Assembly (NCBI RefSeq): GCF_001412595.2
Contig: NZ_CP012640.2
Location: 744,001 to 808,000 of the forward strand
Length of the DNA stretch: 64,000 nucleotides
Source: Massilia sp. WG5
Lineage (GTDB): Bacteria > Pseudomonadota > Gammaproteobacteria > Burkholderiales > Burkholderiaceae_D
Reading direction: 5' to 3'
Positions 17,468 through 45,973 of this stretch are shown here, in pieces. The notes below the pieces were generated by a model that had not been told where the DNA came from, ran no database searches, and saw only the letters and a program-made list of their open reading frames with translations. Made by a program: the position numbers and the translations under genes. Numbering within the stretch: position 1 is the first letter of the stretch; every line of letters starts with the position of its first letter.

Positions 17468-18280
17468 TCAAGCCAGCGGCAGCTCGAGCACGAAGCTGCC
17501 GCATCGCGTGCCGGTGCTGTATGCGGCAAGCGTGCCGCCATGACTCTCGGTGAGCTCGCGCACCGCTTTTAGCCCGACGCCGATCGCGAACGGCTCGAAG
17601 GCAGGCCCGGGCAAAGCGGGCGCCGTGCCGGTCCCGCGGTCCGAGACGGTACAACGCAGCATCGCGCCCCGGGTTTCCACCCACACGCGGATCGTGCCGC
17701 CCTCCGGCGTGGCTTTCGAGGCGTTGTTGATGAGATAGGCAACGACTTGCACCAGTTGGGTAAAGTTCCCATCGACTACCTGGCCACGGGCTGGCGCCGC
17801 GACGACGATGCGATGCGCACGCGCCGCGATCCGCGGCGTGACCTGCTCGACGGCTGCGCGCAGCACATCGTCGAACAGCAAGTTGCGCACATTCGGACCA
17901 GGCCGGGCGCGATCGGCGATGCGCGCAAGCAAATCTTCCGCCGACATGCCAACGCAGTCTTCCGGGACCTCCAGCACATGCTCCAGTCCCAGGAGCGGTA
18001 TGGCGCGATCCGCATGGCCGCCGCGCGGCGTCCTGAGCCCGATGACGGCCGCGCCCACGGATTGCGCGCTGGCCATCGCCGTAGCCAGCTCGGACAGAGT
18101 CACCGTTTCCAGGCCAATCAGGAGGACCTGCGGCGCCTCGCCCGACCCCGGCGGCATCTCGCCGCCAGGGCCGAGCGGCAGCACCCGTACGCCGGCTCCT
18201 GCCGCCAGCATCGCGGCGGCCCGGGCTCCCACCTTGTAAACGACCACCTCAACGTCGGCGGGCGGCCTTGACGCTTGCAT
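17468..18280 (-). CDS. receiver-like plus HATPase domain protein without histidine box
   Basis: A 270-residue soluble protein. Residues 1-125 resemble a degenerate receiver fold (VVVYKVGARAAAML ... VLLIGLETVTL). Residues about 135-268 form a histidine-kinase-type ATPase with N box LINNASKATPEGG, G1 box VSDRGTGTA and G2-like GVGLKAVRELTESHGG. No HisKA dimerisation helix with a phospho-histidine was found. It could be an anti-sigma/ATPase-type switch or a kinase using an atypical site. It is the last gene of the secretion block, and a good ribosome site (AGGAG) precedes the start. Confidence 0.75.
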   Translation of the reverse strand: MQASRPPADVEVVVYKVGARAAAMLAAGAGVRVLPLGPGGEMPPGSGEAPQVLLIGLETVTLSELATAMASAQSVGAAVIGLRTPRGGHADRAIPLLGLEHVLEVPEDCVGMSAEDLLARIADRARPGPNVRNLLFDDVLRAAVEQVTPRIAARAHRIVVAAPARGQVVDGNFTQLVQVVAYLINNASKATPEGGTIRVWVETRGAMLRCTVSDRGTGTAPALPGPAFEPFAIGVGLKAVRELTESHGGTLAAYSTGTRCGSFVLELPLA

Positions 18281-18318
18281 GACTGCTCCTGTTGGAATGA
18301 ATGGTGAATAGCGGCCAG

Positions 18319-18954
18319 CTAGCGGTCCGACGGCGTCTCGGCGCCTGCCGTCTCCTGCGCGCTGCGGTTGCGCCGGTAGCGAGACTGCACCTGCTCGACA
18401 TACCGTATCGTCTCCTTGAAGGGCGGTATCTTCCTGCCGTATTTGAGCAGCGCTTTCTCGCCCGCGTTGTAGGCCGCAAGGACGATATCGAGCTGGTTGT
18501 CGTATTTGTCGAGCAGATATCTGAGGTAGCGTGCGCCGCCGTTGATGTTTTGTACCGGATCGAAGACGTCCGCGGCGCCGAAATCCCTCGCGGTGTCCGG
18601 CATCAGCTGCATCAAACCGGCGGCGCCTCGCGGCGAGAGCGCCTGCACCCTGTATCCGGATTCAACGGCGATGATTGCATGCAGGAGCGCGCCATCGAGC
18701 CCGAATGCCCGCGCGGCCGCATCGATCGTGCCGTCGAAGCGCGAACGCTTCCCTGCGGCGCCCGGCTGCCGGTCCGGTGGCAGCGCCGGCACAGGACGCT
18801 CGGCCACCAGTACCTCGGCCGCCTGGTTCTGCGGCCTGGAATTGGTGAGCACGATGACCTTGTCGCTTCCAACGTAGGTGTAGACGTCGGCGTTCGCGGC
18901 CGGCACTGCGCCGGCGAGCACGTACGCTGCGACAAAACTCCCATATCGTCCCAT
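18319..18954 (-). CDS. lytic transglycosylase with DUF4124-like N-terminus
   Basis: Periplasmic SLT-type lytic transglycosylase, 211 residues, cleaving peptidoglycan glycan strands. A signal peptide ends at ANA (about 22), followed by a short DUF4124-like segment (DVYTYVGSDKVIVLTN) and the catalytic domain. The catalytic glutamate is in HAIIAVESGYRVQA, with the family motifs GAAGLMQLMPDTA, NINGGARYLRYLLDKYD and LAAYNAGE. Its place right after a secretion operon fits a role in opening the cell wall for machine assembly, as with other T2SS/T3SS-associated transglycosylases; this is inferred from context. Confidence 0.9.
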   Translation of the reverse strand: MGRYGSFVAAYVLAGAVPAANADVYTYVGSDKVIVLTNSRPQNQAAEVLVAERPVPALPPDRQPGAAGKRSRFDGTIDAAARAFGLDGALLHAIIAVESGYRVQALSPRGAAGLMQLMPDTARDFGAADVFDPVQNINGGARYLRYLLDKYDNQLDIVLAAYNAGEKALLKYGRKIPPFKETIRYVEQVQSRYRRNRSAQETAGAETPSDR

Positions 18955-19029
18955 GAACCCGGCTCCCGCGTCGATACGCCAGACTATACGCAGGGTGCTG
19001 CATTGCCGGAATCGGGGAAAGCCTGTATT

Positions 19030-19698
19030 TCAGTGGTCGCCGAATGTGTGGCCGAGCAGCCCCTGGTCGATCGCGAAGGCCGTCAGCGCCGAAGCGTTAT
19101 GCATGTTCAGCTTCTGCATCAGGTTCGACCGGTGCTTTTCGACCGTCTTGACGCTGAGGGTGAAGTAGTCGGCGATGTACTTGTTGGTGTGGCCTTCCGC
19201 GATCAGCTTGAGGACCTGGCGCTCGCGGTGGGTCAGCTCACCGAGCGGCGTCGGCGTCGCTTCCCGCCCCGCGTTCAGGTAGCGCTGTATCACTTCGCCG
19301 GAGACGTCGGGACTCAGGTAGGTCTTCCCCGACAGCACGCTGCGGATCGCCACCTGGAGTTCTTCGTGTGTCGCATCCTTCAGCAGGTAGCCGTCGGCGC
19401 CGGCGCGCAGGCTCGAATGGATGTACTCGTCCGCCCGGTGGATGGTGACGATGATGATCCGGATGCGCGGGTAGCGCTTCTTGATATCGATGACGGCTTC
19501 GATGCCGCTCATGCCGGGCATCGAGATATCCATCAGGATCAGGTCTGGCGTCAGGGTTCGCAGCGCCGCGATCGCATCGTGCGCATTTCCGAGGTCGCCC
19601 ACCACTTCCAGGTTCGGATCCATCGAGATCAGGGAGCGCATCCCCGCGCGCAGCAGCGCATGGTTCTCGACGATCAGAATCTTTCCGGTCTTTTCCAT
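19030..19698 (-). CDS. NarL/FixJ-family response regulator
   Basis: A 222-residue two-component response regulator. The receiver (about 6-120) carries the phosphoacceptor in DLILMDISMPGMSG. The LuxR-type helix-turn-helix (about 150-215) includes LTHRERQVLKLIAEGHTNK and SVKTVEKHRSNLMQKL. The ATG at 19698 follows GGGAGA. No kinase is adjacent; the nearest NarX-type kinase is at 45167-45973, at the far end of the same co-directional block. It probably regulates the secretion/multicopper genes. Confidence 0.92.
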   Translation of the reverse strand: MEKTGKILIVENHALLRAGMRSLISMDPNLEVVGDLGNAHDAIAALRTLTPDLILMDISMPGMSGIEAVIDIKKRYPRIRIIIVTIHRADEYIHSSLRAGADGYLLKDATHEELQVAIRSVLSGKTYLSPDVSGEVIQRYLNAGREATPTPLGELTHRERQVLKLIAEGHTNKYIADYFTLSVKTVEKHRSNLMQKLNMHNASALTAFAIDQGLLGHTFGDH

Positions 19699-19712: not shown

Positions 19713-20234
19713 TTATGGCCTTGCGGGTTGCGGCGGCAATGCGGTGTAGCGTCCCGGCGAAAACACGAATACCCATTCCGCGTAGGTGCGCGCGCCGGCG
19801 AAGGCACGGTCGGCGAGCGCGAAATTGTTCTGCTTGAGCGGTTCGCCCGGAGCACGGCTGTACACGCCCATGATCTCCCCGGCAGCGGTTTTCACGAGAC
19901 CCCAATCATCCTTTCCCGTCATCGGATCGCGGTAGACTTCCCGCAGGTGCCGGACCGTGTTCGGCTGGCGCGGATCACGCAACAGGTCCGCCAGCGACAT
20001 GGGAAACTTCGGCGCCTGCGGCGGCGCATGTTCGTAGTAATGGACGATCGCGTTTCGGATCTGGTGCCCTGCAAACAGCAACTGCTTCTCGCGCTCGCGC
20101 TGCGCACTATCATGCCACCCATCCGTGAACTTGGCCAGAGCGAGCCCGGTCCCGGCGATCATCATCATGACGAGCAGGTAGGCGAATCCGCCGTGCCGGA
20201 CGGTGGGCTTGCCTGGTCTGCGCATGTTTGCCAT
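19713..20234 (-). CDS. pseudopilin-like protein of the atypical type II secretion system
   Basis: A 173-residue protein with a single N-terminal hydrophobic helix after a basic leader (HGGFAYLLVMMMIAGTGLALA). This resembles a prepilin signal with G-F at the cleavage point, but lacks the usual glutamate at +5. The soluble domain is pseudopilin-sized and includes DPMTGKDDWGLVKTAAGEIMGVYS, much like the C-terminal calcium-loop region of GspG. The start overlaps the preceding pseudopilin gene by one base (TAATG). Third of three pseudopilin genes in the operon. Lack of Glu5 suggests a minor, tip-type subunit (GspK-like). Confidence 0.75.
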   Translation of the reverse strand: MANMRRPGKPTVRHGGFAYLLVMMMIAGTGLALAKFTDGWHDSAQREREKQLLFAGHQIRNAIVHYYEHAPPQAPKFPMSLADLLRDPRQPNTVRHLREVYRDPMTGKDDWGLVKTAAGEIMGVYSRAPGEPLKQNNFALADRAFAGARTYAEWVFVFSPGRYTALPPQPARP

Positions 20235-20632
20235 TACCAGTCTCCGTAGGCACTGCCGTCGAGCGCCTTGCCGACCGCGCCGCTGTGCAGGTCGGCAACG
20301 CCACCCTTCTCCGGCGTATCCGGCGGCACCACTACCCAGGTGTCGCTCTTTCCTGTCAGCGGATCCACCGGAACCGCGCGCAGATAATGACCGCTGACCA
20401 GCGTGTCCAGCGATTCCGGATACACGCCGCGATCCTCGTAATACTTGTCGAGCACGTGGCGCAAGGAGGCCAGGTTAGCGCGCAGCACCTGCTCGCGCGA
20501 CAAATCGAGGCTGTGGAAGTAGCGCGGGATTCCGATCGTCAGCAGCAGTGCGATGATGCTCAGCACGACCAGCAGCTCGACCAGTGTGAATCCGTACGCG
20601 CGGCCCCTGGAGGGTTTCACGCTCGTCACCAT
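20234..20632 (-). CDS. GspG-like major pseudopilin
   Basis: A 132-residue type II secretion pseudopilin. The prepilin peptidase site is GFTLVELLVVLSI, with Glu at +5, followed by the N-terminal helix. A GspG-like C-terminal region contains VDPLTGKSDTWVVVPPDTPE. No prepilin peptidase gene is in the window, so processing must use one encoded elsewhere. Seven-base overlap with the upstream pseudopilin gene. It is the closest match here to Geobacter OxpG, judged by motif only. Confidence 0.88.
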   Translation of the reverse strand: MVTSVKPSRGRAYGFTLVELLVVLSIIALLLTIGIPRYFHSLDLSREQVLRANLASLRHVLDKYYEDRGVYPESLDTLVSGHYLRAVPVDPLTGKSDTWVVVPPDTPEKGGVADLHSGAVGKALDGSAYGDW

Positions 20633-21096
20633 AGCCGGTAGGGCACGCCATTGATGCCCGTCGCTTCGCTGCGCGAATGCACATCGAATACGTCATCGCC
20701 TTCGCGCGGCTCGTCGGCGCTGCTCGCATACGCCCGTTTCGCCCAGGTCGCATCGTTGTCGAGGGCGGGATCGGTCGCCATCGGGTCGCGCGGAATACTG
20801 CGCAGGAAGTACAGACGCGCCTTGCCGTTCGGGTCGGACGCATCGCGCTCGCCTTCCACGAGGACCGCCAGGCTGGGAGGATAGCCGGAACTGCGTGCCG
20901 GACGGACGATCCGTCCTTCCTCGACCGCCCGGTGGTACGCGTCGATCGCTTCGCGCAGGCCGACCAGGGTGCGCCGCAGTTCCGTCTCGCGCTCGCGCTT
21001 GACCGCGAGTTCCGCCATCGGGAAGGCGACGCTCGCCAGCAGCCCGACGATCGCCAGGGTGACGACCATTTCGATCAGGGTGAAGCCGCGGCTCAT
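20626..21096 (-). CDS. type II secretion pseudopilin
   Basis: A 156-residue pseudopilin with an unusually short leader (MSRG) before the cleavage site FTLIEMVVTLAIVG, with Glu at +5. The soluble domain has the GspG-like segment RSIPRDPMATDPALDNDATW. The ATG overlaps the secretin stop (ATGA). Together with the next two genes it supplies the pseudopilus that pushes substrates through the secretin. Confidence 0.88.
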   Translation of the reverse strand: MSRGFTLIEMVVTLAIVGLLASVAFPMAELAVKRERETELRRTLVGLREAIDAYHRAVEEGRIVRPARSSGYPPSLAVLVEGERDASDPNGKARLYFLRSIPRDPMATDPALDNDATWAKRAYASSADEPREGDDVFDVHSRSEATGINGVPYRLW

Positions 21097-23405
21097 AGCG
21101 AAGTCTCCAGGGTCAGCGGCGCGCTCGCGTTGACCGGGACGGCCTGGCCGCCGGCGTCCGTGCCGGCCGGGCTGCCGGCCTTGATCTGGGTCTGCGGCGC
21201 GGCGGAGATGACCTCGAACGTAGCGCTGACGACACTGCCGGCGCCACTGGAGCCTGCGGGTCCCTGATTGGCGAGGGCGATCGCGATCTGCCCGTTACCC
21301 GCTCCCAGGTTCTTCGTGAACTGCGACGGCGTGCCGCCCTGGCTGACGAAGTTCCCTTCGCTCACGTCCACCGGACGCAGGACCGCCGGATCGTACTCCA
21401 GGGTCAGGGCGAGCGATTTGAGCGCCTGCGCGCTCTGGGCATTCAGGGTGACGCTGAGCTTTTCTCCCACCTTGGCCTGGCTCGGGCCCTGCCAGGTCAG
21501 GACCACCGGCTGTCCAGAGGGCACGGCCGGCGCCGGCGGCGCCGAGGGCTGGCCGGCAACCAGCGCGGTATGCGGCCCGGGGCGCGCCCCGCCGGTCGTC
21601 GACGTGCTGACCTGGCCGAACGAGCGCGCCATCAGGCTGCCGTTGCGCGGCGTGGCCTCCGTGCCGGCCCAGAACTCGGCGTTGCGGGCGTCCGCGCTGC
21701 GCCTGCTGCCGACCACGTGCGGAGTGATCGACAGCACGATCTCGGTCTTGCGCCTGTCGTTCTTCCGGCTGGAGAACAAGGCCCCGAGCACCGGCAGGCT
21801 CCCCAGGCCAGGAACCCGGCTTGCGCTGTCGCGGTCCTCGTCGTTGATGAGGCCTGCGAGGATCTGCGTCTCGCCGTCCTTCAGGCGCAATACGGTGGTC
21901 GCGTTGCGCGTGCCGACCTGGTAGGCGAGCGTGCCCGACACCGTGTTCTGGACCTCCTTGACGATCGAGCTCACTTCGAGATTCACCTTGATGCTGACAT
22001 CGTTGTCCAGGTGGATTTCCGGCTCGACCTCCAGTTTCAGGCCGACGTCGAGATACTGCACGTTGCCGGTCACCACCGGCGTTCCGGTCGACACCGGCGT
22101 GATCGCGTTCGTGATGACGGGCACGCGGTCGCCGATCATGACCTTCGCCTTCTCATGGTTGCGCGCCCGGATCCGCGGGCTGGCCAGCAGGTTCGAATCG
22201 CCGTCCTGCCACAACATGTTCAGCGTTATCGCCGGAACCGGGCTGACGACGATGTTATCGCCATTGAGATGCCTGAAGGCCTCGACCGGCAAGCCGGCAT
22301 TGAGTCCGTTGGCCTGCAGCGAGAAGTTCAGCGCAGACGGATAGTTGACGCCGATCTCGGACAGCTTCGACCTCGCGATCTCGAGCACCTCCACCTCGAG
22401 CATGACCTCGGGGTCGGCGATATCCTGGTCCTCGACCAGGCGCCCGGCCAGTTCGATCACGTCCGGGGTATCGCGCATGATGATCGAATTCGTCTTCTCA
22501 TGCACGAAGATGTCCTTGGTCTTCAGCAGCGTCTTGATCATCGTGACCAGCTGCTTGGCGTCCGCGTTAACGAGGTGGAAACTGCGGATCTTCAGGTCCT
22601 GGAATTCCTTGATCTTGGCCGCGGTGTTCTGGTAGACCAGGATGGTGTTGTCGCTCAGGAGCTTCTTCTCCAGCTGGGTCTGCAACAGGATCAGGTCGAC
22701 CGCGTCGGCCACCGCGATGTCCTTGACGAAGATCGAGATCTTGGTGTCGGCCTTGACCTCCTTGTCGAGCAGGACATTGATCCCGCTGGAACGGGCAAGT
22801 GCTTCGAAGACCACTTTCAGGGTCGCGTCGCGGAACTGCAGCGACACCGGGCGCCGGAACTTGGCGTTCAGGCCGGTGCCCGATGCCAGGATGTTCGCGC
22901 GCTGCTCGTCGATTTGCCGCTTCAGTGCCAGCGCGCCCGGGTGCCGCTCGTCTTCCAGCAGGATGCGGTGAAGATAGGTCTGGGCGGCGTCGAAGTCGTT
23001 GTTCTTCGACGCCGCGGCGGCCGCTTCGAGCCACCCCGCATGGCGCTGCGCGCGCTCCAGCGCGTCCAGCCCGGCGCGCGCGCCGCGGTCCATCGGTGCG
23101 ATCCGCAAGGCCCTGGCATACAGTTCGCGCGCGGTCTGGTCGTGGTTGGCCGCGCGTTCGGCATCGGCGCGCTCCAGCAGCGCAGCCGTGATCTCGGCCC
23201 GCTGGCGCAGCAGGTTCGCGCGGTAGCTGGCATTGGTGGGCTCGATCGCGCTCGACTCGTCGAGCTTGCGCAAGCCTTCCTCGGGCTTGCCCGATCCGAT
23301 CAGTTCCATGCCTTCGCGTTGGAGGCGCTCGGCGGCGCACCCGCCCAGCAGCAGGGCAACGGTGCTGCACAGGACGGTCAGGCGGCGGGCGGAGGAAGTC
23401 ATCAT
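21093..23405 (-). CDS. gspD: secretin (GspD/PilQ-like lipoprotein) with cohesin-like C-terminal domain
   Basis: Outer-membrane secretin channel, 770 residues. The signal peptide ends in the lipobox LLGGC. Residues about 25-170 look like TPR repeats, followed by a secretin N-domain (SLQFRDATLKVVFEALARSS ...) and the secretin core with GDRVPVITNA and the C-terminal signature GLGSLPVLGALFSS. After a Pro-rich linker the last about 130 residues resemble a cohesin fold (VGEKLSVTLNAQSA ... LTLEYDPAVLRPVDVSEG). MM at 23405/23402 is the start, ten bases after the upstream stop. Confidence 0.92.
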   Translation of the reverse strand: MMTSSARRLTVLCSTVALLLGGCAAERLQREGMELIGSGKPEEGLRKLDESSAIEPTNASYRANLLRQRAEITAALLERADAERAANHDQTARELYARALRIAPMDRGARAGLDALERAQRHAGWLEAAAAASKNNDFDAAQTYLHRILLEDERHPGALALKRQIDEQRANILASGTGLNAKFRRPVSLQFRDATLKVVFEALARSSGINVLLDKEVKADTKISIFVKDIAVADAVDLILLQTQLEKKLLSDNTILVYQNTAAKIKEFQDLKIRSFHLVNADAKQLVTMIKTLLKTKDIFVHEKTNSIIMRDTPDVIELAGRLVEDQDIADPEVMLEVEVLEIARSKLSEIGVNYPSALNFSLQANGLNAGLPVEAFRHLNGDNIVVSPVPAITLNMLWQDGDSNLLASPRIRARNHEKAKVMIGDRVPVITNAITPVSTGTPVVTGNVQYLDVGLKLEVEPEIHLDNDVSIKVNLEVSSIVKEVQNTVSGTLAYQVGTRNATTVLRLKDGETQILAGLINDEDRDSASRVPGLGSLPVLGALFSSRKNDRRKTEIVLSITPHVVGSRRSADARNAEFWAGTEATPRNGSLMARSFGQVSTSTTGGARPGPHTALVAGQPSAPPAPAVPSGQPVVLTWQGPSQAKVGEKLSVTLNAQSAQALKSLALTLEYDPAVLRPVDVSEGNFVSQGGTPSQFTKNLGAGNGQIAIALANQGPAGSSGAGSVVSATFEVISAAPQTQIKAGSPAGTDAGGQAVPVNASAPLTLETSL

Positions 23406-23415: not shown

Positions 23416-23997
23416 CTAAACCGGATCGGCAATTGGAAGGGACTGGCGCAGCTGCAGCGGCAGATAGGTCATCACCAGGCCGCCCGGCGCAATCCTGTCG
23501 AGGCGGTAGGCGTGGTCGATGGTATCGCCCTGCTGGACCAGCAGCAGCTGTTCGCCGCGCAGCAGGATCACGGTCTGGCGCGGACCGTCCTGGTAGCTGC
23601 CTACATACACGAAGGGATTCGGCGGCGCCGCCGGGGCCGGCGGCGGTACGGCGGCGGCTGCGGGCGCAGGCGGCGGGGCGGCGGCGGCCACCGCCGGCGC
23701 AGGCGGCGGCGCCCACGAGGTCGCGGCAAAGGGGTCGGCCGTGCTGGCCCCCGCCGGCGCAGGCGCCGGTTCCAAGGGGGCCGGGCCTGGCCGCAGCGCG
23801 GCGGGCAGCGGCGCGGCGGCCGGAGCCCGGGCGCTCGTCGCCGGCGGCGCGATGGCGGCGACGGCATGCTTCGGGGCGGCCGGCGCGGCTTCGGAAACCT
23901 GCACGACCTGCCGTTCGGGCTGCCAGCATGCGGCCAGCAGGCTGGCGAGCGCCAGTCCGCGCAACGCAGGGCGGTGAAGACGCAGGCCGGCGATCAT
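23416..23997 (-). CDS. Pro/Ala-rich periplasmic secretion protein (PilP/GspC-like, 'secretion system X')
   Basis: A 193-residue protein with an N-terminal signal or lipoprotein leader (LALASLLAACWQPE), a long Pro/Ala linker (about 40-130) and a small C-terminal domain (FVYVGSYQDGPRQTVILLRG ... GDTIDHAYRLDRI). That domain resembles the PilP/GspC module that contacts the secretin. Related proteins in Geobacter-type systems carry the misleading name 'secretion system X translation initiation factor'. ATGA overlap with the PilO-like gene. It probably links the inner-membrane platform to the secretin. Confidence 0.78.
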   Translation of the reverse strand: MIAGLRLHRPALRGLALASLLAACWQPERQVVQVSEAAPAAPKHAVAAIAPPATSARAPAAAPLPAALRPGPAPLEPAPAPAGASTADPFAATSWAPPPAPAVAAAAPPPAPAAAAVPPPAPAAPPNPFVYVGSYQDGPRQTVILLRGEQLLLVQQGDTIDHAYRLDRIAPGGLVMTYLPLQLRQSLPIADPV

Positions 23998-24581
23998 GGC
24001 GAAGCCCTCATGAAGTAGGCCAGCTTGACTACGGCTTCGAGCGCCGGGTCGCTGATCCTGGCGCGGCGGAACTGGACGTCGACCAGGGCCACGGCCTTTT
24101 CGCGCGCCAGCACCGCGGCGGCGAAACGCCGGACCTGCGGGTAGCTGCCATGCAGCGGCAGCGTTACCTCGTAGCGCACCACCTGGCCGTGCGCCTCCCG
24201 GGCGACCGCGTAAGCGCCGTCGTTCAGCAGGAGGCCGGCCTCTCCCGCATACTGCACCAGCTGGTCCAGCCTGTCCGGAAACTGCCTTTCGTCCGCGAGC
24301 GCGGCCTGCAGCTGGTCCAGCGGAGCCTGCGGCGCCGGCGCCGCGGCGGCCGGCGCCCTGCGCTGGGGAACGGCCAGGCGCTGCCGGGCGTCGACGATCA
24401 GCGCCAGCGAAGGTTCGATCGACAGCAAATAAATCCCGGCCCCGATCGACGCCAGCAGCACGGCCGCGGTTCCCTGCTGTCCCAACCTCGTCCGGTAGCG
24501 CTGCAGCCGCCGCCAGAGCGCACCCGGCCTGCCCGCCAGGGTGGCGAACCGCAGGCCGGCCATGGACATCGATTTGTTCAT
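23994..24581 (-). CDS. PilO/GspM-like inner-membrane platform protein
   Basis: A 195-residue bitopic protein. A short cytoplasmic N-terminus precedes one membrane helix (TAAVLLASIGAGIYLLSI). The periplasmic part has a coiled-coil-like stretch and a ferredoxin-like domain (YEVTLPLHGSYPQVRRFAAAV), the PilO/GspM architecture. It starts as ATGA over the PilN-like gene, and the M-N-O-like gene order supports the assignment. A longer frame upstream is a shadow. Confidence 0.82.
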   Translation of the reverse strand: MNKSMSMAGLRFATLAGRPGALWRRLQRYRTRLGQQGTAAVLLASIGAGIYLLSIEPSLALIVDARQRLAVPQRRAPAAAAPAPQAPLDQLQAALADERQFPDRLDQLVQYAGEAGLLLNDGAYAVAREAHGQVVRYEVTLPLHGSYPQVRRFAAAVLAREKAVALVDVQFRRARISDPALEAVVKLAYFMRASP

Positions 24582-25120
24582 GTCCCTCGCTCCCATTTCA
24601 GTTCCATCGAAAACCGTACCGGCTGCTGGGGGTCCGCCGGGTCGACATGGTGTTCGCGCAGGTAAACCCTGGAATACGCGCCGCCTCCCTGCAGCCGCTT
24701 CAGGAATGCCAGCAGCGCTCCCATGTTGCGGGCCTCGCCGCCGAGGTTCAGTTGCCCGCGGCCCGGCAAAGGCGCCAGCGACAGCAGGCTGACGTCGGGC
24801 CCGGCGGCGCCTTCGATCGCGCCGAACAGCCGCTCCCAGGGCGTCGCCAGTTCGGCGCGCACCTGTCCGGCCAGGCGTTCTTCCGCCAGCGCGTCGGCGC
24901 CGCGCACCGGCGTCCGCCGCGGCGCCGGCGTGGCGCTGGCCGCCCGTTCGCGCTCCTGCGCGCGCTGCTGCAGATCGGCCGCGGTATCCGCCAACTGGAA
25001 CGCATACAAGGCCAGGGCGCCGCAGCCGGCCAGGGCGCCGGCGAGCAGCAGCGCCGGCGCGCGAAGCCAGGACGGCATGCGGCGGCCATGATCCAGCCGG
25101 AGCGCGTGCACGCGCGTCAT
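24578..25120 (-). CDS. PilN/GspL-C-like platform protein
   Basis: A 180-residue bitopic inner-membrane protein with one helix near 20-43 (ALLLAGALAGCGALALYAF), a coiled-coil segment (LQQRAQERERAA) and a periplasmic domain including ARNMGALLAFLKRLQGG. This is the PilN layout. ATGA overlap with the PilM-like gene. It forms the platform with the PilM- and PilO-like proteins. Confidence 0.82.
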   Translation of the reverse strand: MTRVHALRLDHGRRMPSWLRAPALLLAGALAGCGALALYAFQLADTAADLQQRAQERERAASATPAPRRTPVRGADALAEERLAGQVRAELATPWERLFGAIEGAAGPDVSLLSLAPLPGRGQLNLGGEARNMGALLAFLKRLQGGGAYSRVYLREHHVDPADPQQPVRFSMELKWERGT

Positions 25121-25926: not shown

Positions 25927-27579
<1,653 letters not shown>

Positions 27580-37469: not shown

Positions 37470-38695
37470 GTCGGATCCCCCGTGATCACGATTTCCGTCA
37501 TCATCCCGCCATAGTCCTGGTCGTTATTGCTGAGGAAATTCAGATTGGTCGTATAGAAGAAATAGGTGCCGGCCGGGACCGACGAGGCGTCGATCATGAC
37601 CTCGACCGACTCGCCGCCGCCCAGCGTCACCGAGGCGGTGTCGTAGTACAGGTCCTTGCCGGTCGGCCCGCGCAGCTGGCGCGCACCGGCCCCGACGACG
37701 GTCATCGGCAGGCCTTGCGCGGTGACCGTGTAGTAGTCCGCCACGCCCAGGTTCGAGAGCCGCAGCAGCAGGCGCGAACCCTCGGTGCGGCGGTCCAGGG
37801 TCACCAGCGAGCTTGTCTTTTGCGACTGGAATGTGGTGCCGGAGGTATACGGGTCGACCTGGGTCGGCGGCAGTGCGGCGGGATTGACGGTGTCCGGATA
37901 GCCGCGTCCGTTGATCATCGGGTAGACCGTCTTCATCTGGTTGAACGGAATCGGCTGGATGCCGAAATCGGCTTCGTGCGTGGCCGTGTCGAAGGCGGTC
38001 AGCTGCAGCGCGACCGCCTTGCTGTAGCCGGTCGAACCGTCGCCGTCGTTGTAGACGAACTTGGTGTAGGTCTTGCCCTTGTACGTCTTGCTGGTGCCGT
38101 CCTGGCGCGGCTTGACGAACAACTGGCCCTGCATCCCCATCTGGATGTGCTCGGCCGCCTCGACGTGGCAGTGGTACATATAGGTGCCGGGTTCGTTCAG
38201 GTTGTAGAAATACGTGACGCTGGCGCCCATGCTGACTGTCATGGCGCCCTCCGGCACGCCATCGAAGATCGGCGCCTGGTTGGCGAAGCCGTGGAAGTGG
38301 ACGCTGTGGGTATCGAACAGGTCGGGACGCGCCACCATCCCGACATTGCTGAGCGTCAGATAAAAGTGATCTCCTTCGTTCAGCTCGATCAGCGGGGCCA
38401 CGAAGTTCGCGTGCGCCAGGTTCAGCACGACGTCCTTGGCGAGGGTGCCGGTGACGTCGTCGAAGCCGAAGGAGTACATCTGCCGCCCGTCGGCCATGGT
38501 GACGAAGCCGTCGCCTCCCGTCAGGTGCTTGCACACCGTATTCGCCGGACGCACCTCGCGCCCGGTCCATGTGGCGTCGCCGTTGGTATCGCCGGGACAC
38601 TGGACGAACACCCCGGCCCGGGCGGCGCCGGGCAGCCATGCGAGGGCCGCGAGCAAGGCCGGCCCACCGAGTTTCCTGATGATCTTCACGTTCAC
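37466..38695 (-). CDS. multicopper-oxidase-domain protein with intact HCH motif
   Basis: A 409-residue exported protein. Signal peptide to about 27, then a short cysteine-containing segment with the calcium-loop-like PGDTNGDATWTG. Cupredoxin domains follow, with HSVHFHG (about 130-136) and YHCHVEAAEHIQMGM (about 172-186). The second carries the type-1 Cys-His-Met set in the spacing found in this bacterial family. No HPxHxHG/HCHxxxH pair is seen near its C-terminus; those motifs are in the next gene. It may act with that gene product as a two-chain enzyme. Confidence 0.9.
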   Translation of the reverse strand: MNVKIIRKLGGPALLAALAWLPGAARAGVFVQCPGDTNGDATWTGREVRPANTVCKHLTGGDGFVTMADGRQMYSFGFDDVTGTLAKDVVLNLAHANFVAPLIELNEGDHFYLTLSNVGMVARPDLFDTHSVHFHGFANQAPIFDGVPEGAMTVSMGASVTYFYNLNEPGTYMYHCHVEAAEHIQMGMQGQLFVKPRQDGTSKTYKGKTYTKFVYNDGDGSTGYSKAVALQLTAFDTATHEADFGIQPIPFNQMKTVYPMINGRGYPDTVNPAALPPTQVDPYTSGTTFQSQKTSSLVTLDRRTEGSRLLLRLSNLGVADYYTVTAQGLPMTVVGAGARQLRGPTGKDLYYDTASVTLGGGESVEVMIDASSVPAGTYFFYTTNLNFLSNNDQDYGGMMTEIVITGDPT

Positions 38696-38725: not shown

Positions 38726-41700
38726 TCAGGGGACGGTGCCGCCGGCAAAGTCGTCGATGTGGCCGTTAGCCGGCTCCACCACACCGATCCGTCCGGCGCC
38801 GGCGACGAAGGCGTTCCCGCCGCTCACCGGCAGCGTCGCGCTTCCCAGCAGGGCCGGCACGCCGCCCTGCACCTTCCACACGGTCACGGTGCCGGACGCG
38901 CTGCACTGCGCCAGCAGGGTGTCGCCGCTTGCCAGGGTCACGCCGCTGGCGACCGTCGCGGTGTTGGCGAAGGACAGGCCGCCGGTGGTCGTGGTATCGA
39001 CCACGATCGAGTTGTTGTTGTAGCGCACCCGGACATAGCTGGTGTAGGTGCCGAGCACGAAATTGCCGGCAGCTTTCAGCAATAGCCCGACGCCGTTCAA
39101 CTGCCCCCCGCCCAGCACCGCGGACGCAGCCTGGCTGGGGCCGAACTGGTCCTTCCAGAACGCCACGCCAGCCAGCGTAGCTGCCGCTTGCTGGGCGTTG
39201 AGACGGATCGCCGCCGCACCGAACAGCACCCCTTGCTGCCAGCTGGCGCCAAGGGTATTGGCATTGGCCCGGTTGAAGTTGTCCAGCACCGTCAGCGTCG
39301 GCGCCGTGGCCGGAGGCGGCGCGCTGCCGCCGCCGACCTCGTCGGCGCCGATGTCGATCTTCGCCGCGTTGCGGCTCTGGCCGTCGTAGTCGGCGTCGGG
39401 CACGCCATTGCTGGCGGTGCGGTTCAGGCCCTTGTCGACCGCCGGTGACGTCGCCTTCAGGTGGTAGTCGCCGAACAGCGGGCAATTCGCTGCGCTCTGG
39501 GGCGACTTGGCCTTGCCGTCGCTGCCCATGCAGTTCCACGGGGTCAGCGGACCATAGCGGACATCGATGTAGTTGCCGCCCTCGTCGCTGGTGGCGGCGG
39601 TGTCGATGGTCGTCGAGAAGCCCGGAATGAACGGGGTCGGCTTGCGGTCGCCGTTCGGATAGGCCGCCACGAACAGCGGGTCGTCCGCCAGGTTGCCGTT
39701 GCCGCCATAGCCGCCGGCGCCCAGCAGGTCCGACAGGATGCTGTGGTCGGGGCTCAGCTTGTCCTTGCCGCTCTCCACATACTTGCCGGCGAAGGTGCCC
39801 TGCTTGGCGGTGCCGATCACCGCGAGGTCCACATAGACCGGATTCTTGCCCATCAGCGAAGCGGTGTTGCAGCCGCCGCCCGGATCGGCGTCGAACAGGC
39901 CGAATTCACCCGCCCCGCTGCCGGTAATGGCCCAGCAGCCGACCCGGTTGTGCCACAGGATGTCATTGTGCAGTACCGGATTGGAGAACAGGTAACTGTT
40001 GCGCTTGCCCTGCGCAATCGCCGCGACCAGTCCGCCGCTGCTGGCCTGCGATACCAGGCCGGCCGGCTGCGGGCTCGATTGCGGGTCGCCCGGATGGGAA
40101 AAGGCTTCCTGCGCGGTCGCGGTGGTGTCGTTGAAGGCGATCGTGTTGTTCGAGGCGTTCACCTTGAGCGCATCGACGATCGCCACGCCGCCGCCGGCAA
40201 ACCCCGAGACGTTGTCGACGATGATGTTGTTGACCATCGTGACCGTATTCCAGGTCGACTCGTTGTTCGGTGCGCGGCTCACGTCGAGGCCGTTCACCTG
40301 CGCCAGGCGGACACCGCCGCCGGCGCCGGAGCCGGCATTGTTGCCCTGGATGAGGTTCTGCTGCAGGCTGACCGAACCGGTGCCCGCCGACAGCGCGCCG
40401 GCATTCAGCGGCGGCGCACCGCCGATGAACACGCCGCCGCCGGTCGAATTCGCGGACTGGTTGAAGACCTGGTTGAACAGGATGCGGTTGTTGGCGATCA
40501 GGCCGCCGTCCGCCAGGCCGAGCTGGGCGACGCCGCCGCCGTGACCGAGCGTGAAGTTGCCGCACACATGGTTGTTCACGACCTGGTAGTTGCTCGCGCC
40601 ATTGCCCAGGCCGATGCCGCCGCCCACGCCGGATTCGGTGCCGCCATTCTGCACGACCCAGTTATGGTGGATGTTGGCGTTCGGGTCGACCGAATCGGTA
40701 TAGCCGCCGTAGGCCGTATTGTTCTGGTCCAGCAGGTCGACGTGGCCGATGCGGATGCCGCCGGCGTAGGTGCCGGAATTCCCGACCACGCGGTTGTTCG
40801 CGATCTGCACGTTGCGGCCGTAGCCGCTGACCAGGATCCCGCCGCCGCCATCGGCGCCGGTGATGGTCAGGCCGTCGATGCGGGCCGGATTGGTGGCGTT
40901 GAAGTGGCCGTTGCCGGAACCGCTCGACGCGGCCTTGCCGACCACCAGCACGCCCGGGGCTTCATCGGCGCCGAACAGGATCGGTTCGTTGTCGCTGAGG
41001 TTGCCGCCCAGGGACTGGCCGGGCAGCAGGTCGAAGGTCCGGTTGGGGCCGGCGTTCAGGGTATTGACGCCGGTATCCGGATCGATGACCGGCGGGCTCG
41101 CCGGCCTGGCGTCGATCTTGCGGTCGATCAGGCGCCGCCATTTTTGGAGCGTGTCGTTCCCCAGCTTCGCGGCATTGATCATGGTCGACATGGCGCCCCA
41201 GCCCTGCAGCTGCACTTTCTTGTCCATGATGACCGGCGTGTTATAGATGCCGGGCGGAACGATGATCAGGTCGCCGTCGCTGGTGGTCGGCGCGTCGATG
41301 ACGGCCTGGATGCTGCCGCCGGCCGGGACGTACTTCGGCGCCGACCCGCCGACGGTCACCGTCAGGCCGACGGGCGAGACGACGCCGTCGCGCGTGATCA
41401 GCAGCTGACCGGTGGCGGCCTTCGCCGGTACCGACACCACGACCAGGTCGTTGGCCCAGCTCACCACGGGCAATTCGAGCCCGCCGAGGGTCACCTTGCT
41501 GTTCGGCCCGGCGGGACCGAAGCCGAAGTCGCGCTTGACCAGGCGCGGCGTGCCGTCGCCCGGGTCATAGTAGGGATTGAGGACATCGAGGCTGCCGGCG
41601 GACACGATCGTCAGGGTACGGTTGCCGCTGGCCGGCACCCAGGGACCGCTGTTGCTGTCGCCGGTGACGCTGTAGATCATCGGCACGCCATCGCCGAATT

Positions 41701-44700
41701 CGCAGTCGACCGGATTCTGCGACGGGCCGGCAAAGGCGGCGACCGGCACCACCGGGGTGTCCAGGTAGGTGGTCTTGCCCGGCAGGTACTGGAAGGTGTA
41801 GCAGAACTGGCTGTAGCGGCGGTCGAAGTAGGGATCGATCACCATCTTCGGGCTGCCGTCCGGATTGGTGGCGCCGCTCGGGTCGGCGATCGGGCCCGGC
41901 GAGTTCATGCACGAGGTAATCATGCTCGGCGAGACGCCGGACGGGAACGGCGGATTGATCGTGAAGGTCGACGGCACCAGGAAGTTGAAGGAACCGAATT
42001 CATCGGCATACACGCGGCCGATTTCCCTGCCGCTCCAGTCCAGCAGCGAGACCGGCAGGTGCGGCGGCGCGTGCTTTTCGCCGAAGGTCGGCGCATTCAC
42101 GTCGAATTCGCTCGAGAGGTCGTCGAGGATGAAGCCGACACCGTGGCCGGCGACCGGGGCTTCCGTGTACAGGAAGAAGTTCGGGGCCGGGTTGCGGCCG
42201 GGCTGCATGTCGACCAGCTTCATGTCGCACTTCTTCCAGGTCTGGCCGGCGCCCTTGAACAGCGGGTTGCCCTGTCCCTGCCCCGGGAACAGGGTCAGGT
42301 AGGCCGGCACCGGCAGGTCGCGTCCGACGCAGGGGAAAGGCTCGGCCTGGGGCGTCGGCGAGATGACGTCGCCGAAGACGACATTCTTGTCGCCATTACC
42401 CTGGTGGAAATAGCCTGGTGGCGCGACGGCTTCGAGGATGTATTTCACGTTGGGCAGGTTGGCCTGTCCGGCCACGCTGCCGAAGGCATAGCCGCCGTCG
42501 AACACGGCGGGACGCGCCTGGTTCCAGTTGCGCAGGCCGTCATAGCAGTCGAGCGCTTTGCCGGCGTCCGTTCCATACGGAACCTTGTACGCTTCGCCCG
42601 GGCACCCCGAAGGTTGCGCATCGTCCCAACCGTCGGTCTTGCCCAGGCCGACGTAGGGACGGTTGCCGTCGTCGGAGTTGGCGCCCCACTTGAACACATC
42701 GCCGTAGCTGAATTCCTCCGGGCCGCCCTGGTGGCTGCGCTTGACGTCTTCCGGTCCTTTCTCCGGCGCCGATTTGCCGCAGGAAGCCGGATCGCGCCAG
42801 CAGAACGGGTAGTTGTCGACGTCCGGAGGATCGTAGGCGTAGCCCTCGCTGCTGCGCGACTCGCAGCTGCCGTCACCGGCCGCGGACGGCTTGTCGGGCT
42901 TGCCGTCGCCGTCGCAATCGAGGAACAGGTTGACCTGCACGCGCGGGATCCCCGGCTCCCAGTTCTCGGCGGTCGCGTACTTGGGATCGTCCTCCGCGCG
43001 CGTGATGCCGTATTGGACGATACCGGCGATGCCGCCGTTTTCCTGTCCCGAATAGGCCTTCTTGCCATACTCGATATGGTTGGTCTGGCCCAGGAAGGTC
43101 TGCATCCCTTCCAGCAGGACCACGCCGTGCTCGACCCGGTACGGCATGGTCTGCCCGACGTCGTGGCACAGGTTCGGATTGCTGTTGCCGGGGTTGGCAT
43201 CCACGTCTTCCTGGGTGCAGGTATACACCTGTGGCGACAGCCGGTCGAACGAGGGGGTGGTCCAGCCGTTGTGCGGCGGAACAGCGCCGCCGCCGTCGAC
43301 GACCACGGTGGCGCCGGTCGCCTTGAAGCGCGAGTAGTCGACTTCGCCGATCATCCAGTTAAAGAAGGGGAAAAACTCGTTGAACTTGAACTCCCCCTTC
43401 GAATCCGTCAGGGTCGACTGATAGATGCTGCCGTCGCGGAAGCGGATATTCATTGCCTGGTTGGCAATACCAACTTCATTGGCGTCCGGGAATCCATCGC
43501 CGTTCGTATCGAAGAACACCCTGCCTTCATAACGGGCGAACCAGTTAAAGACCGGCACGTTACCGAGCGCCAGCGTGCTTGCGCCCGGCGCCACCGTGAC
43601 CGGTGCGGTGGCAATGATCAGGTCGAGGGCTTCGTCGAAGACAACCAGCTCCCAGGTGCCGGCCGGGACTTTCGGTATCGAGAACGTGCTGTCGGCGTTG
43701 CACGGCGCCGCGTACAGCGCGCGCCTGGTGCCGGTAGCCTCGTTCAGGCCGATCCAGCACCCCGGGAACGGCGCGCCGTCATGGAAGCTGTAGTCGGGCG
43801 GGCGCGAATTGTGGATGTTGACGATCTTGCCGGTGATGGTGGCGGTGCCGTTTAGGACTGGCGTGTTGCCATTCTTGGCTAGGACGCCCTTGTGCGTAAA
43901 GCCCGTGAATACGTGGTGTCCCGGCGGTCCGAACTCCTGGAAGAACGGGGGTTCGCCGTTGCGCACCCAGGCGTCGTCGCCCTTGGTGCCTTCGATCGTC
44001 GTGGTCTGTTGCCAGTCGGTGCCGGTCGGCGGTACGACTTGCACCGTGTACTTGGCGGGGTACAGGTTGCGGATGACCGCAATGCCGTCGGCGCCCGATT
44101 TGATGATGCCGCTGCCACGTGCGAGCATGACCGGTTTGCCGTTAGCGTAGCAATAGCCTGCCGTTAACGTCTCACCGGCGCCGCAACTGGTCTTGTAGGT
44201 CGTCCCGAGGGGGTTGCCGAACGCGTCCTGGGTTACCTGCCCGCCCGATGCCCCATAGGTGCCGCCGGCTTCGGTCAGGAGAATGGTGAAGCCGGCCAGG
44301 CCCTGCTCCTGCGGCAGGTCGGGCGCCCCGTTCAGGGGACTGTTGTCGTTGAAGACGAATACCGAGAGCTGCGCCGCCGGCAGGGGATACTTGTTGACGT
44401 AGACCGTGACCGAGGTGGCGCCGGCGGGAATCGCCGCGCCACCCATCGCGTAGCCATCCTCGGGCAGGATCGATATATAGTGGCGTTTGCTGCGGTCGAG
44501 CGCCGGCAGCGGCATGTATTTTCGGTCTGGATCGAGGCAGGCCACCGAAGCCGGTTCGCTGCAGTCGTTCCCGACGACCGGCGTGCCGTCCGCCATCTTG
44601 CCCGCCGCAAGCACCGGCATGTAACTCGAGTGGAAGCTGAACGAGTAGCTGTCGCGTGTAGCGTGCTGCCCCGGTATCGATTCCTTGCTGGTGTCCTGCT

Positions 44701-44890
44701 CGATCGTCCACCGGTAACTCGTGACCTCCTTTACCGCCCCCGACGGGTCGACACCCATCACTTTAACCTGCAGGGGACCCGGTTCCGCCAGCGCCGGACT
44801 TCCTGCGCACGCAAGCAAGACCATGAAAACGGGCATGAGCAGGCATTTCACCATGCCCGAAACCGCCCTGGTGATGATATGTAGATCCAT
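38726..44890 (-). CDS. giant secreted protein with SdrD-B-like, IPT/TIG and parallel beta-helix regions
   Basis: A 2054-residue exported protein, the largest in the window. The signal peptide ends near LAEPG. The N-terminal 1100 residues contain SdrD-B/CNA-B-like segments with calcium loops DTNGDGFPDANE and DCDGDGKPDKP and many cysteines. An IPT/TIG-like region follows (about 1145-1240), then a pectin-lyase-like beta-helix (about 1240-1700) with repeated asparagine-rich rungs (IANNRVVGNSGTYAGG, NNHVCGNFTLGHGGG). The C-terminus is a concanavalin-like domain beginning DNFNRANANTLGASWQ. ATG 44890 follows GGGAG. Function unknown; likely a surface scaffold. Confidence 0.9.
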   Translation of the reverse strand: MDLHIITRAVSGMVKCLLMPVFMVLLACAGSPALAEPGPLQVKVMGVDPSGAVKEVTSYRWTIEQDTSKESIPGQHATRDSYSFSFHSSYMPVLAAGKMADGTPVVGNDCSEPASVACLDPDRKYMPLPALDRSKRHYISILPEDGYAMGGAAIPAGATSVTVYVNKYPLPAAQLSVFVFNDNSPLNGAPDLPQEQGLAGFTILLTEAGGTYGASGGQVTQDAFGNPLGTTYKTSCGAGETLTAGYCYANGKPVMLARGSGIIKSGADGIAVIRNLYPAKYTVQVVPPTGTDWQQTTTIEGTKGDDAWVRNGEPPFFQEFGPPGHHVFTGFTHKGVLAKNGNTPVLNGTATITGKIVNIHNSRPPDYSFHDGAPFPGCWIGLNEATGTRRALYAAPCNADSTFSIPKVPAGTWELVVFDEALDLIIATAPVTVAPGASTLALGNVPVFNWFARYEGRVFFDTNGDGFPDANEVGIANQAMNIRFRDGSIYQSTLTDSKGEFKFNEFFPFFNWMIGEVDYSRFKATGATVVVDGGGAVPPHNGWTTPSFDRLSPQVYTCTQEDVDANPGNSNPNLCHDVGQTMPYRVEHGVVLLEGMQTFLGQTNHIEYGKKAYSGQENGGIAGIVQYGITRAEDDPKYATAENWEPGIPRVQVNLFLDCDGDGKPDKPSAAGDGSCESRSSEGYAYDPPDVDNYPFCWRDPASCGKSAPEKGPEDVKRSHQGGPEEFSYGDVFKWGANSDDGNRPYVGLGKTDGWDDAQPSGCPGEAYKVPYGTDAGKALDCYDGLRNWNQARPAVFDGGYAFGSVAGQANLPNVKYILEAVAPPGYFHQGNGDKNVVFGDVISPTPQAEPFPCVGRDLPVPAYLTLFPGQGQGNPLFKGAGQTWKKCDMKLVDMQPGRNPAPNFFLYTEAPVAGHGVGFILDDLSSEFDVNAPTFGEKHAPPHLPVSLLDWSGREIGRVYADEFGSFNFLVPSTFTINPPFPSGVSPSMITSCMNSPGPIADPSGATNPDGSPKMVIDPYFDRRYSQFCYTFQYLPGKTTYLDTPVVPVAAFAGPSQNPVDCEFGDGVPMIYSVTGDSNSGPWVPASGNRTLTIVSAGSLDVLNPYYDPGDGTPRLVKRDFGFGPAGPNSKVTLGGLELPVVSWANDLVVVSVPAKAATGQLLITRDGVVSPVGLTVTVGGSAPKYVPAGGSIQAVIDAPTTSDGDLIIVPPGIYNTPVIMDKKVQLQGWGAMSTMINAAKLGNDTLQKWRRLIDRKIDARPASPPVIDPDTGVNTLNAGPNRTFDLLPGQSLGGNLSDNEPILFGADEAPGVLVVGKAASSGSGNGHFNATNPARIDGLTITGADGGGGILVSGYGRNVQIANNRVVGNSGTYAGGIRIGHVDLLDQNNTAYGGYTDSVDPNANIHHNWVVQNGGTESGVGGGIGLGNGASNYQVVNNHVCGNFTLGHGGGVAQLGLADGGLIANNRILFNQVFNQSANSTGGGVFIGGAPPLNAGALSAGTGSVSLQQNLIQGNNAGSGAGGGVRLAQVNGLDVSRAPNNESTWNTVTMVNNIIVDNVSGFAGGGVAIVDALKVNASNNTIAFNDTTATAQEAFSHPGDPQSSPQPAGLVSQASSGGLVAAIAQGKRNSYLFSNPVLHNDILWHNRVGCWAITGSGAGEFGLFDADPGGGCNTASLMGKNPVYVDLAVIGTAKQGTFAGKYVESGKDKLSPDHSILSDLLGAGGYGGNGNLADDPLFVAAYPNGDRKPTPFIPGFSTTIDTAATSDEGGNYIDVRYGPLTPWNCMGSDGKAKSPQSAANCPLFGDYHLKATSPAVDKGLNRTASNGVPDADYDGQSRNAAKIDIGADEVGGGSAPPPATAPTLTVLDNFNRANANTLGASWQQGVLFGAAAIRLNAQQAAATLAGVAFWKDQFGPSQAASAVLGGGQLNGVGLLLKAAGNFVLGTYTSYVRVRYNNNSIVVDTTTTGGLSFANTATVASGVTLASGDTLLAQCSASGTVTVWKVQGGVPALLGSATLPVSGGNAFVAGAGRIGVVEPANGHIDDFAGGTVP

Positions 44891-45089
44891 GTTGATTCTC
44901 CCGGCCACCCTTGGTTTTGCGAAATTCTATTTGGACCAATACAGTCGCGTTACGCCAATACCGCTTCAAACCAGTATGGCGGAAGGCTTTTGTCCACACA
45001 GGGAGGCAAAGTCTGCAGTTCAGGAGAGGAAACTACGTACGCAAAGGTATGTTTTACGGTAGCCGCAGCTACTGTGCCGACACAAAATG
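44891..45089 (-). promoter_or_regulatory. probable promoter region of the multicopper operon
   Basis: A 199-base AT-richer region between the terminator and the first ATG of the giant protein gene. It includes an ATTGGTCCAAAT dyad near 44927-44938 and a TAGAAT hexamer that could be a -10 box. The assignment is from layout; no -35 at standard spacing could be fixed. Confidence 0.4.
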
Positions 45090-45116
45090 AAAATGGCCGC
45101 ATTTGCGGCCATTTTT
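45090..45116 (-). terminator. bidirectional Rho-independent terminator after the sensor kinase gene
   Basis: A nine-base perfect stem, ATGGCCGCA / TGCGGCCAT, with a two-base loop, flanked by A and T runs on both sides. It lies about 50 bases past the kinase stop and separates it from the giant-protein gene, which therefore must have its own promoter in 44891-45089. Confidence 0.85.
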
Positions 45117-45166
45117 CTATTCCTGCATCGTGATCCACGCGCCCGGATGTTCCCTTGGCTGGAGAT

Positions 45167-45973
45167 TCAGCAAAGCGGTTTCATGTTCCATTCCACACCG
45201 ATCCTGGTGCCGGTTCCGGCATCGCTGGATATTGCGATGGTCCCTCCCGATGCATGCACCCGGCGTATCATGCCGCAAATGCCCGAGGAAGGCCGACATT
45301 CCTGGACCCAGGCCGGAGAAATACCTTCGCCGTCATCCTCGATGATTAGCGTGAGGCAATCATTGCTTTTATAAAAGACTAGCGTGATTTGCCGCGCATC
45401 CGCATGCTTCAGGGCATTATTTACTGCCTCCTGCACAATACGGTAAGCCACGATCCGCAGGGCCGAAGGCACATCGCTGTCGCTCACCGCGATATTCGAT
45501 GCGATCCTCAACTGGGGCTGGGCCTGGCGCGCCTCCCGCAGGATCGAGGAGATGCTGGCCACGAGGCCCAGGTCGTCGAGCATCGACGGATACAGGTTCA
45601 TGACCGAACGGCGCAACTCGTCGATGGCCTGGCGCGCTCCGGCACACGCGCGTTCCAGCGCCAGGCCCAGCGCGGGCGCAAGCGCATTACAGGCCACGGC
45701 CGCGGTTTTCGCGCTGCGCAGCTCGATCGTCAGAATCGTCAGCATCTGCCCCAGGCCATCGTGCAATTCCGAGGCAATCCGGCGCCGCTCATTTTCCTGT
45801 ACCGCCGCTGCGTAATCGACCCAGTCCATTTTATAGTCCTGCCCGGCTTCCGGCGGATAATCCCTCCCTTTATCGGTTATCGGCAATGTCGATCGGAATT
45901 CATGTAGCTGCCCGGCCGAATGGCCAGTCTTAAAGGACATTACATCCGCGAAGTTTATCGAATGATCTCCCAT
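45167..45973 (-). CDS. soluble NarX-type sensor histidine kinase (HisKA_3)
   Basis: A 268-residue kinase without membrane segments. The HisKA_3 phospho-site is in ERRRIASELHDGLGQ. The ATPase has N box QEAVNNALKHA, G1 IIEDDGEGIS and GICGMIRRVHASGG. About 65 residues precede the kinase core with no recognisable sensor domain, so signal input is unclear; it may work through a partner. HisKA_3 kinases pair with NarL-type regulators, and the one at 19030-19698 is the only orphan here. The start has a GGGGAG ribosome site. Confidence 0.9.
   Translation of the reverse strand: MGDHSINFADVMSFKTGHSAGQLHEFRSTLPITDKGRDYPPEAGQDYKMDWVDYAAAVQENERRRIASELHDGLGQMLTILTIELRSAKTAAVACNALAPALGLALERACAGARQAIDELRRSVMNLYPSMLDDLGLVASISSILREARQAQPQLRIASNIAVSDSDVPSALRIVAYRIVQEAVNNALKHADARQITLVFYKSNDCLTLIIEDDGEGISPAWVQECRPSSGICGMIRRVHASGGTIAISSDAGTGTRIGVEWNMKPLC

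Follow-up and report, generated by a model that had tools for sequence, protein, structure and literature searches.

A co-directional gene block of Massilia sp. WG5 encodes three tandem relatives of the two-domain multicopper oxidases (MCOs), here called A, B, and C, beside a type II secretion-like machine. The window, meaning the whole stretch of DNA analyzed, comprises 64,000 nt (C1:744001-808000 of the 6.2-Mb genome G000; other sampled genomes carry handles of the same kind), and the block runs through it from 45973 to 17468 with all genes on the minus strand. As read from their sequences, A, B, and C are paralogous oxidases of two domains each, in which copper sites have been lost reciprocally, and a trinuclear site would probably be completed by A and B together, half from each polypeptide. 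We find it slightly better than an even bet that the block specifies a secreted MCO with one active site built from two polypeptides, a judgment on the whole statement that serves as an overall guide and is not a product of its parts. Gene content, paralogy, the ligand pattern, co-occurrence of A and B, fusion of C to a putative stalk, and linkage to the machine are directly supported.

A copper site divided between two proteins

Domain 1 of A holds a set of type-1 copper ligands (H130, C176, H183, and M188) together with four His of the trinuclear kind (H133, H135, H175, and H177), and its domain 2 has no ligands. B has no copper site in domain 1; its domain 2 carries the trinuclear His residues H290, H292, H422, and H424, plus H287, with no type-1 Cys. 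In C, the copper ligands are absent from both domains. All 120 A homologues and all 120 B homologues listed individually among the database matches described below keep the ligand sites unchanged, and the predicted structures of A and B align with the type-C two-domain MCOs PDB 3g5w and 2zwn across both cupredoxin domains. On this ligand pattern, a reading of A, B, and C as three separate MCOs was rejected. An earlier note, made from the letters of this DNA, had spoken of three multicopper-type proteins; three related two-domain MCO proteins are indeed present, but the site is split between A and B and missing from C. The pattern suggests that the proteins form a heteromer around a single composite active site, probably A:B:C, with C marginally favored as the third member of a ring.

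Some observations fit this picture poorly. At one of the lost ligand positions in domain 1 of B, a His remains at residue 156 in the window and in 2 of the 120 listed homologues, and a comparable remnant, a His at residue 322 of A, is found in 8 of 120. In addition, the model of A alone has a mean predicted local distance difference test (pLDDT) score of 67, with some ligand loops below 50.

Distribution and layouts of the A-B-C cluster

Genomes were sampled at the level of family (n = 195), class (n = 369), and phylum (n = 398). A strong A homologue occurs in 7 family genomes, the window genome and six others, at E values of 6.7e-42 or better, the next best being 8.5e-12. At 1e-25, the class sample has A in 10 genomes and B in the same 10, none having only one of the two, and its 13 A loci and 13 B loci are adjacent pair by pair. 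In the phylum sample, A is found in two genomes, those of the window and G789. A scan of genome contigs with A alone returned a single locus, L050, from a Ramlibacter metagenome-assembled genome (MAG). Together these give 21 loci (7 from the family, L050, 12 further class loci, and G789). All 21 have the A-B-C tandem, C being cut by the contig end in G270 and G295b. The gap between A and B is -37 to 53 bp in 20 loci and 199 bp in G083, where the chosen B start is probably late.

At 1e-20, the protein database yields 7,995 A-type and 3,382 B-type matches, out of 8,000 scored candidates each; 120 of each type were listed individually, and the names among the matches listed include Paraburkholderia, Ralstonia, Cupriavidus, Collimonas, Gallionellaceae, and Steroidobacteraceae. 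The 12 further genomes sampled from the window's genus have no strong A match (best, 7.7e-7). The A and B proteins of L050 are 82% and 74% identical to those of the window. As 12 congeners lack a strong A match and a Ramlibacter MAG has an A protein with 82% identity, the cluster looks sporadic and may well have been transferred horizontally.

Two layouts exist. C and a giant SdrD_B-domain protein form one open frame of 2,561 to 2,939 aa in 9 of the 21 loci (G096, G077, G097, G164, G186, G083, G433a, G407, and G295c), from which we take the two to belong together. In 10 others (the window, L050, G505, G433b, G544, G331, G202, G295a, G512, and G789) the two are separate and the giant gene lies upstream of A; the remaining two loci (G270 and G295b) are cut. 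One genome, G433 (L058-L060), has both layouts, with C fused at one locus and separate at another. An S8 protease gene accompanies the cluster in all eight separate-layout loci in which the region beyond C is covered (the window, L050, G505, G433b, G544, G331, G512, and G789) and in none of the nine fused loci, which give only immunoglobulin (Ig)-type matches (the G295c contig ends shortly after); a role of the protease in maturation is possible. A small lipoprotein-like protein and a fusion protein with a CxxCH motif are also conserved in the cluster. An apparent fusion of the giant protein to A in G505 (a 2,347-aa open frame) was discarded as an artefact, the translation before A being out of frame.

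Gene content of the block

Open frames and Pfam agree with the earlier note that secretion machine and multicopper genes are joined in one single-strand block. The features, all on the minus strand, are as follows.

45167..45973, minus: sensor kinase with HisKA_3 and HATPase_c (Pfam), called a two-component kinase; NCBIfam UhpB/MctS/NarQ-like score below cut-off
38726..44890, minus: giant SdrD_B-domain protein ("SdrB"), probable surface stalk or adhesin (Pfam PF17210; NCBIfam choice_anch_Q below cut-off)
37466..38695, minus: protein A, two-domain MCO (Pfam, alignments, ligand counts, structure model)
36105..37469, minus: protein B, two-domain MCO (Pfam, alignments, ligand counts, structure model)
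33959..36097, minus: protein C, two-domain MCO relative with an Ig-like (Big_9) tail (Pfam, ligand inspection)
33482..33949, minus: small lipoprotein-like protein, kept in the cluster (lipobox LSAC by sequence reading)
31238..33475, minus: S8 subtilase with Ig/cadherin-like repeats (Pfam)
29623..31230, minus: MofC-like fusion of one CxxCH (residue 73) and a periplasmic-binding domain (PF13458 below cut-off; architecture as in the part of PMC5566968 consulted)
28927..29589, minus: SCO1/SenC copper chaperone (Pfam PF02630)
27580..28770, minus: GspF/PilC-like inner-membrane protein (Pfam PF00482; below NCBIfam GspF cut-off)
25904..27583, minus: GspE/PilB-like ATPase (Pfam PF00437 and PF05157; below NCBIfam GspE cut-off)
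25117..25926, minus: PilM-position protein (gene order only, without Pfam support)
24578..25120, minus: PilN-like protein, weak (Pfam PilN E value 0.012; 4 of 5 aligned members match)
23994..24581, minus: PilO-position protein (gene order, conserved profile)
23416..23997, minus: Pro/Ala-rich PilP-position protein (gene order, conserved profile)
21093..23405, minus: secretin with TPR, STN, Secretin_N, Secretin, and cohesin domains (Pfam; lipobox LGGC by sequence reading)
20626..21096, minus: pseudopilin 1 (Pfam N_methyl)
20234..20632, minus: pseudopilin 2 (Pfam N_methyl)
19713..20234, minus: pseudopilin-like protein 3 (no Pfam match; conserved profile)
19030..19698, minus: NarL/LuxR-type response regulator (Pfam, NCBIfam)
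18319..18954, minus: SLT transglycosylase (Pfam)
17468..18280, minus: HATPase_c protein (Pfam)

Several other calls of the earlier note need trimming. Of its PilM/N/O-like proteins, PilN is weakly supported, PilO is placed by position and a conserved profile, and PilM by position, without Pfam support. Two of its three pseudopilins have N_methyl matches, but the third has a conserved profile and no Pfam match. Its cytochrome-binding-protein fusion does contain one CxxCH, but Pfam returned no cytochrome match, leaving that single motif as the cytochrome part, and the binding domain scores below cut-off. The giant SdrD_B protein may, from its sequence, contain the beta-helix proposed there.

A below-cut-off Pfam match of the PilM-position protein to PKS_DE was ignored. 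A has three EXXE motifs, the fusion two, and the giant protein one, while B and C lack them; the motif is too short for these counts to have any meaning. Several plus-strand frames of the window were scanned and gave no match. Just downstream of the block, on the same strand (11769-17177), lie COX2 with cytochrome c, COX1, COX3, and a cytochrome c protein, a probably ordinary set.

The secretion machine

Machines of this lineage recur in other genomes in the order pseudopilin, F, E, M, N, O, P, secretin, and three pseudopilins. The window proteins all score below the NCBIfam equivalog cut-offs, with 158 versus 351 bits for GspD, 474 versus 630 for GspE, 262 versus 424 for GspF, and 48 versus 89 for GspG, and no C, L, or M of canonical type II secretion was recognized in the block. 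A pseudopilin precedes F in 15 of 15 machines in which that region is covered (G096, G077, G407, G433, G186, G083, G164, the second copy G000b, G211, G366, G141, G130, G301, G532, and G789).

The window genome contains a second machine of the same layout (C1:5172001-5192000; L078), with no A-B-C genes in the fetched 20 kb. Related family secretins with in-frame stops, seen in G160:C65, G051:C167, G133:C7, and others, represent decaying copies or sequence errors.

Linkage between the machine and the A-B-C genes

At 10 of the 21 A-B-C loci, the stretch retrieved includes machine genes (the window, G096, G077, G097, G433a, G407, G789, L050, whose contig is cut within the pseudopilins, G505, and G544), so that the joining of machine and multicopper genes proposed by the earlier note holds beyond the window. 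In G505 and G544, the machine beside the cluster belongs to an unrelated lineage, implying that the link arose at least twice. The machine is on a different contig from the cluster in three loci (G164, G186, and G083). The remaining eight have no machine in the fetched stretch: G433b (with one elsewhere in the genome), G331, G512, and G270, G202, G295a, G295b, and G295c, the last five sitting on contigs of <17 kb.

Secretin profile scores in the family sample exceed 1,000 bits in exactly the seven A-positive genomes (G000, G077, G096, G097, G164, G186, and G083) and in 0 of 188 A-negative genomes; among 75 genomes without A but with a secretin match, the best is 718 bits. On a secretin tree of 19 rows, 11 of them labeled as linked including the three other-contig cases, the label requires 2 changes, and 0 of 500 shuffles are as low, with close relatives among the rows favoring clustering of the label. 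The linkage is more than chance, with A-B-C in tandem at all 21 loci and machine genes near 10 of them, and is real but neither obligatory nor universal. In one genome without an A match at 1e-25, a machine with SLT and response regulator genes (G211:C12; L079) is sister to that of G407 in both the secretin and the ATPase trees.

Other observations speak against the secreted-oxidase reading. Four of the seven high-scoring secretins built the profile and score highly by construction, and the other three (G164, G186, and G083) represent one genus with machine and cluster on separate contigs. At 1e-60, 75 of 82 family genomes with a secretin lack A, as do 8 of the 11 secretin-positive class genomes; the other three (the window, G433, and G407) have A with an adjoining machine. 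Conversely, 7 of 10 A-positive class genomes lack the secretin at this threshold, two of them, G505 and G544, having the unrelated machine. In the ATPase tree (18 rows), the MCO-linked machines cluster poorly: the label requires 4 changes, and 41 of 500 shuffles are as low. The 35-kb contig of G512 shows no machine. Lastly, the window machine itself has no pseudopilin before F, SCO1 lying there instead (gap, 28770-28927). It must use a pseudopilin from elsewhere, do without one, or be impaired. The nearest such pseudopilin in the genome (C1:5175764-5176156; 66% identical to the G433 copy) belongs to the second, unlinked machine 4.4 Mb away.

A proposed mechanism and its rivals

We propose that the common ancestor of A, B, and C was a homotrimeric type-C two-domain oxidase, with each trinuclear site placed where domain 1 of a subunit met domain 2 of its neighbor. 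Following duplication, A would have retained the domain-1 half (type-1 copper and four His), B the domain-2 half (four His), and C neither, so that an A:B:C ring would have a single working interface, between domain 1 of A and domain 2 of B. C may then serve as the structural subunit that holds the oxidase on the giant SdrD_B stalk; in many relatives, C and this stalk are a single fused protein. Copper would be loaded by SCO1, and the type II secretion-like machine would carry the complex across the outer membrane. Electrons would enter at the type-1 copper from a donor outside the cell, for which Fe(II) or Mn(II) in minerals is the likeliest candidate; O2 would be reduced at the composite site, and the periplasmic MofC-like fusion may accept or sense electrons. 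The quaternary structure, the route of secretion, the catalysis, and the substrate are all inferred here. Export of A-B-C by the linked machine strikes us as fairly likely from the gene arrangement. A metal substrate stands at even chances; the most likely activity is the oxidation, outside the cell and with O2, of mineral Fe(II) or Mn(II), and oxidation of phenols is possible. The surface copper-redox role offered by the earlier note stays the best guess. The full combination is a tentative proposal that we hold to be somewhat less probable than its opposite. It would be a heterotrimeric MCO that has a single composite four-copper site, is linked through a dead subunit to a giant surface stalk, leaves the cell through the secretion machine to oxidize mineral Fe(II)/Mn(II) on the outer surface, and occurs widely across Burkholderiales and other groups.

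The proteins might instead act separately, A as a type-1 copper electron carrier, maybe with some copper on its other His residues, and B and C as structural or metal-binding proteins, with no composite site and with electrons passing from the mineral through A to the cytochrome-like fusion. Each single protein does have only half of a trinuclear set, the cluster conserves the CxxCH fusion, and the model of A is poor around part of the ligands. The eight complementary His residues, invariant in all the listed homologues of both proteins, are hard to explain if the two sets never meet, and A and B co-occur strictly in tight tandem; we consider separate action unlikely. Somewhat less remote, though still improbable, is a machine that serves its own cargo or forms a pilus, with A-B-C leaving by another route. 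Its close relatives without A, among them the second copy in the window genome, favor this idea, as do the A-positive class genomes without that secretin and the missing pseudopilin. Against it are a linkage made at least twice, with unrelated machines, and the high-scoring secretins confined to A-positive family genomes, even if four of those seven are in the profile.

The oxidase could also act, laccase-like, on organic phenols or polymers and not on metals, which we rate as doubtful. Phenols are oxidized by a two-domain laccase according to the portion of PMC13151041 consulted, and the A matches listed include soil heterotrophs such as Paraburkholderia, Cupriavidus, and Collimonas. However, the available text of PMC12016527 has similar proteins of the chemolithotroph Sideroxydans lithotrophicus ES-1 more abundant on magnetite than on Fe(II)-citrate, and the MofC-like and SCO neighbors are those of Mn/Fe clusters in the sections of PMC5566968 seen.

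How bacteria take up electrons from solid minerals, especially by means other than multiheme cytochromes, remains a question on which these genes may bear. The analysis names three genes with thousands of database matches and makes a residue-level prediction, that neither A nor B is a full oxidase alone, so expression of single genes would wrongly score the family as inactive. If the proposal is true, a homotrimeric enzyme has become a heteromer through reciprocal half-site loss, and a dead subunit has been reused as an anchor.

Comparison with known systems

An atypical type II secretion system in Geobacter was reportedly described by Mehta in 2006, and the earlier note had likened the block to such an Oxp system exporting OmpB. 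Likenesses to canonical type II secretion are E, F, the secretin, the pseudopilins, and an N-like protein; differences are the Pil-like M/N/O/P order, the TPR and cohesin domains on the secretin, and the D/E/F/G scores below cut-offs. These scores, the missing pseudopilin before F, and the description of the similar ES-1 triplet as non-homologous to metal oxidoreductases suggested earlier (He 2017, PMC5566968, in the part available) leave an Oxp/OmpB-type assignment unsupported. What survives of the resemblance is shared company, since Geobacter OmpB and Leptothrix MofA clusters, in the same source, also have a MofC-like fusion and SCO1 as neighbors of an extracellular MCO. None of A, B, and C carries all four copper motifs, as a single MCO of the OmpB/MofA kind would, and no MofB-like gene was recognized in the window gene scans. 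Membership being unproved, we do not file the block under OmpB/Oxp. The mof operon is shown in PMC8218464, where "secretion system" is absent from the text consulted. Cupriavidus necator oxidizes Fe(II) smectite (PMC3863755), with "multicopper" absent from the portion available; it is not used as evidence here.

Among the best 20 of 44 literature matches, titles and abstract openings include none about a heteromeric or split MCO, although the word "heterotrimer" appears one time in PMC10673308; a narrower search was likewise empty. A search for the secretion link matched only PMC5566968, and no mention of the link or of a split site was found, mostly at the level of titles and abstracts. One for Slit locus tags matched only PMC12016527.

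The closest described system is that of ES-1, compared by description only and from partial texts. He 2017 reports a tandem of three MCO genes accompanied by one MofC-like and one SCO gene. Keffer 2025 (PMC12016527) finds levels of Slit_1812-1818 raised in late magnetite cultures relative to those on Fe(II)-citrate, describes two of the proteins as having MCO motifs (called canonical MCOs) and a larger third as motif-less, and points to comparable clusters in Paraburkholderia, Ralstonia, Anaeromyxobacter, and Steroidobacteraceae. Shared with the window are thus three neighboring cupredoxin/MCO genes, one of them motif-less, SCO1, and a MofC-like gene. A predicted cytochrome and small proteins are further common points, and the large motif-less protein of ES-1 has adhesin- and polysaccharide-lyase-like parts. 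By description, its cluster resembles our fused-C loci, whereas the window has the adhesin-like part as a separate gene. Neither a split site nor secretion genes are mentioned in the ES-1 descriptions available, and the main text of PMC12016527, as retrieved, has no word beginning with "secret." Clusters of this type, and their connection with solid Fe(II), have therefore already been published. Unlike the type-C two-domain MCOs 3g5w and 2zwn, in which alignments place both half-sites in each chain, the half-sites here belong to two separate chains and the third chain lacks both, so that no single chain holds the full set of ligands. Relative to the parts of the published descriptions examined, the split copper site and the link to a secretion machine are what this locus adds.

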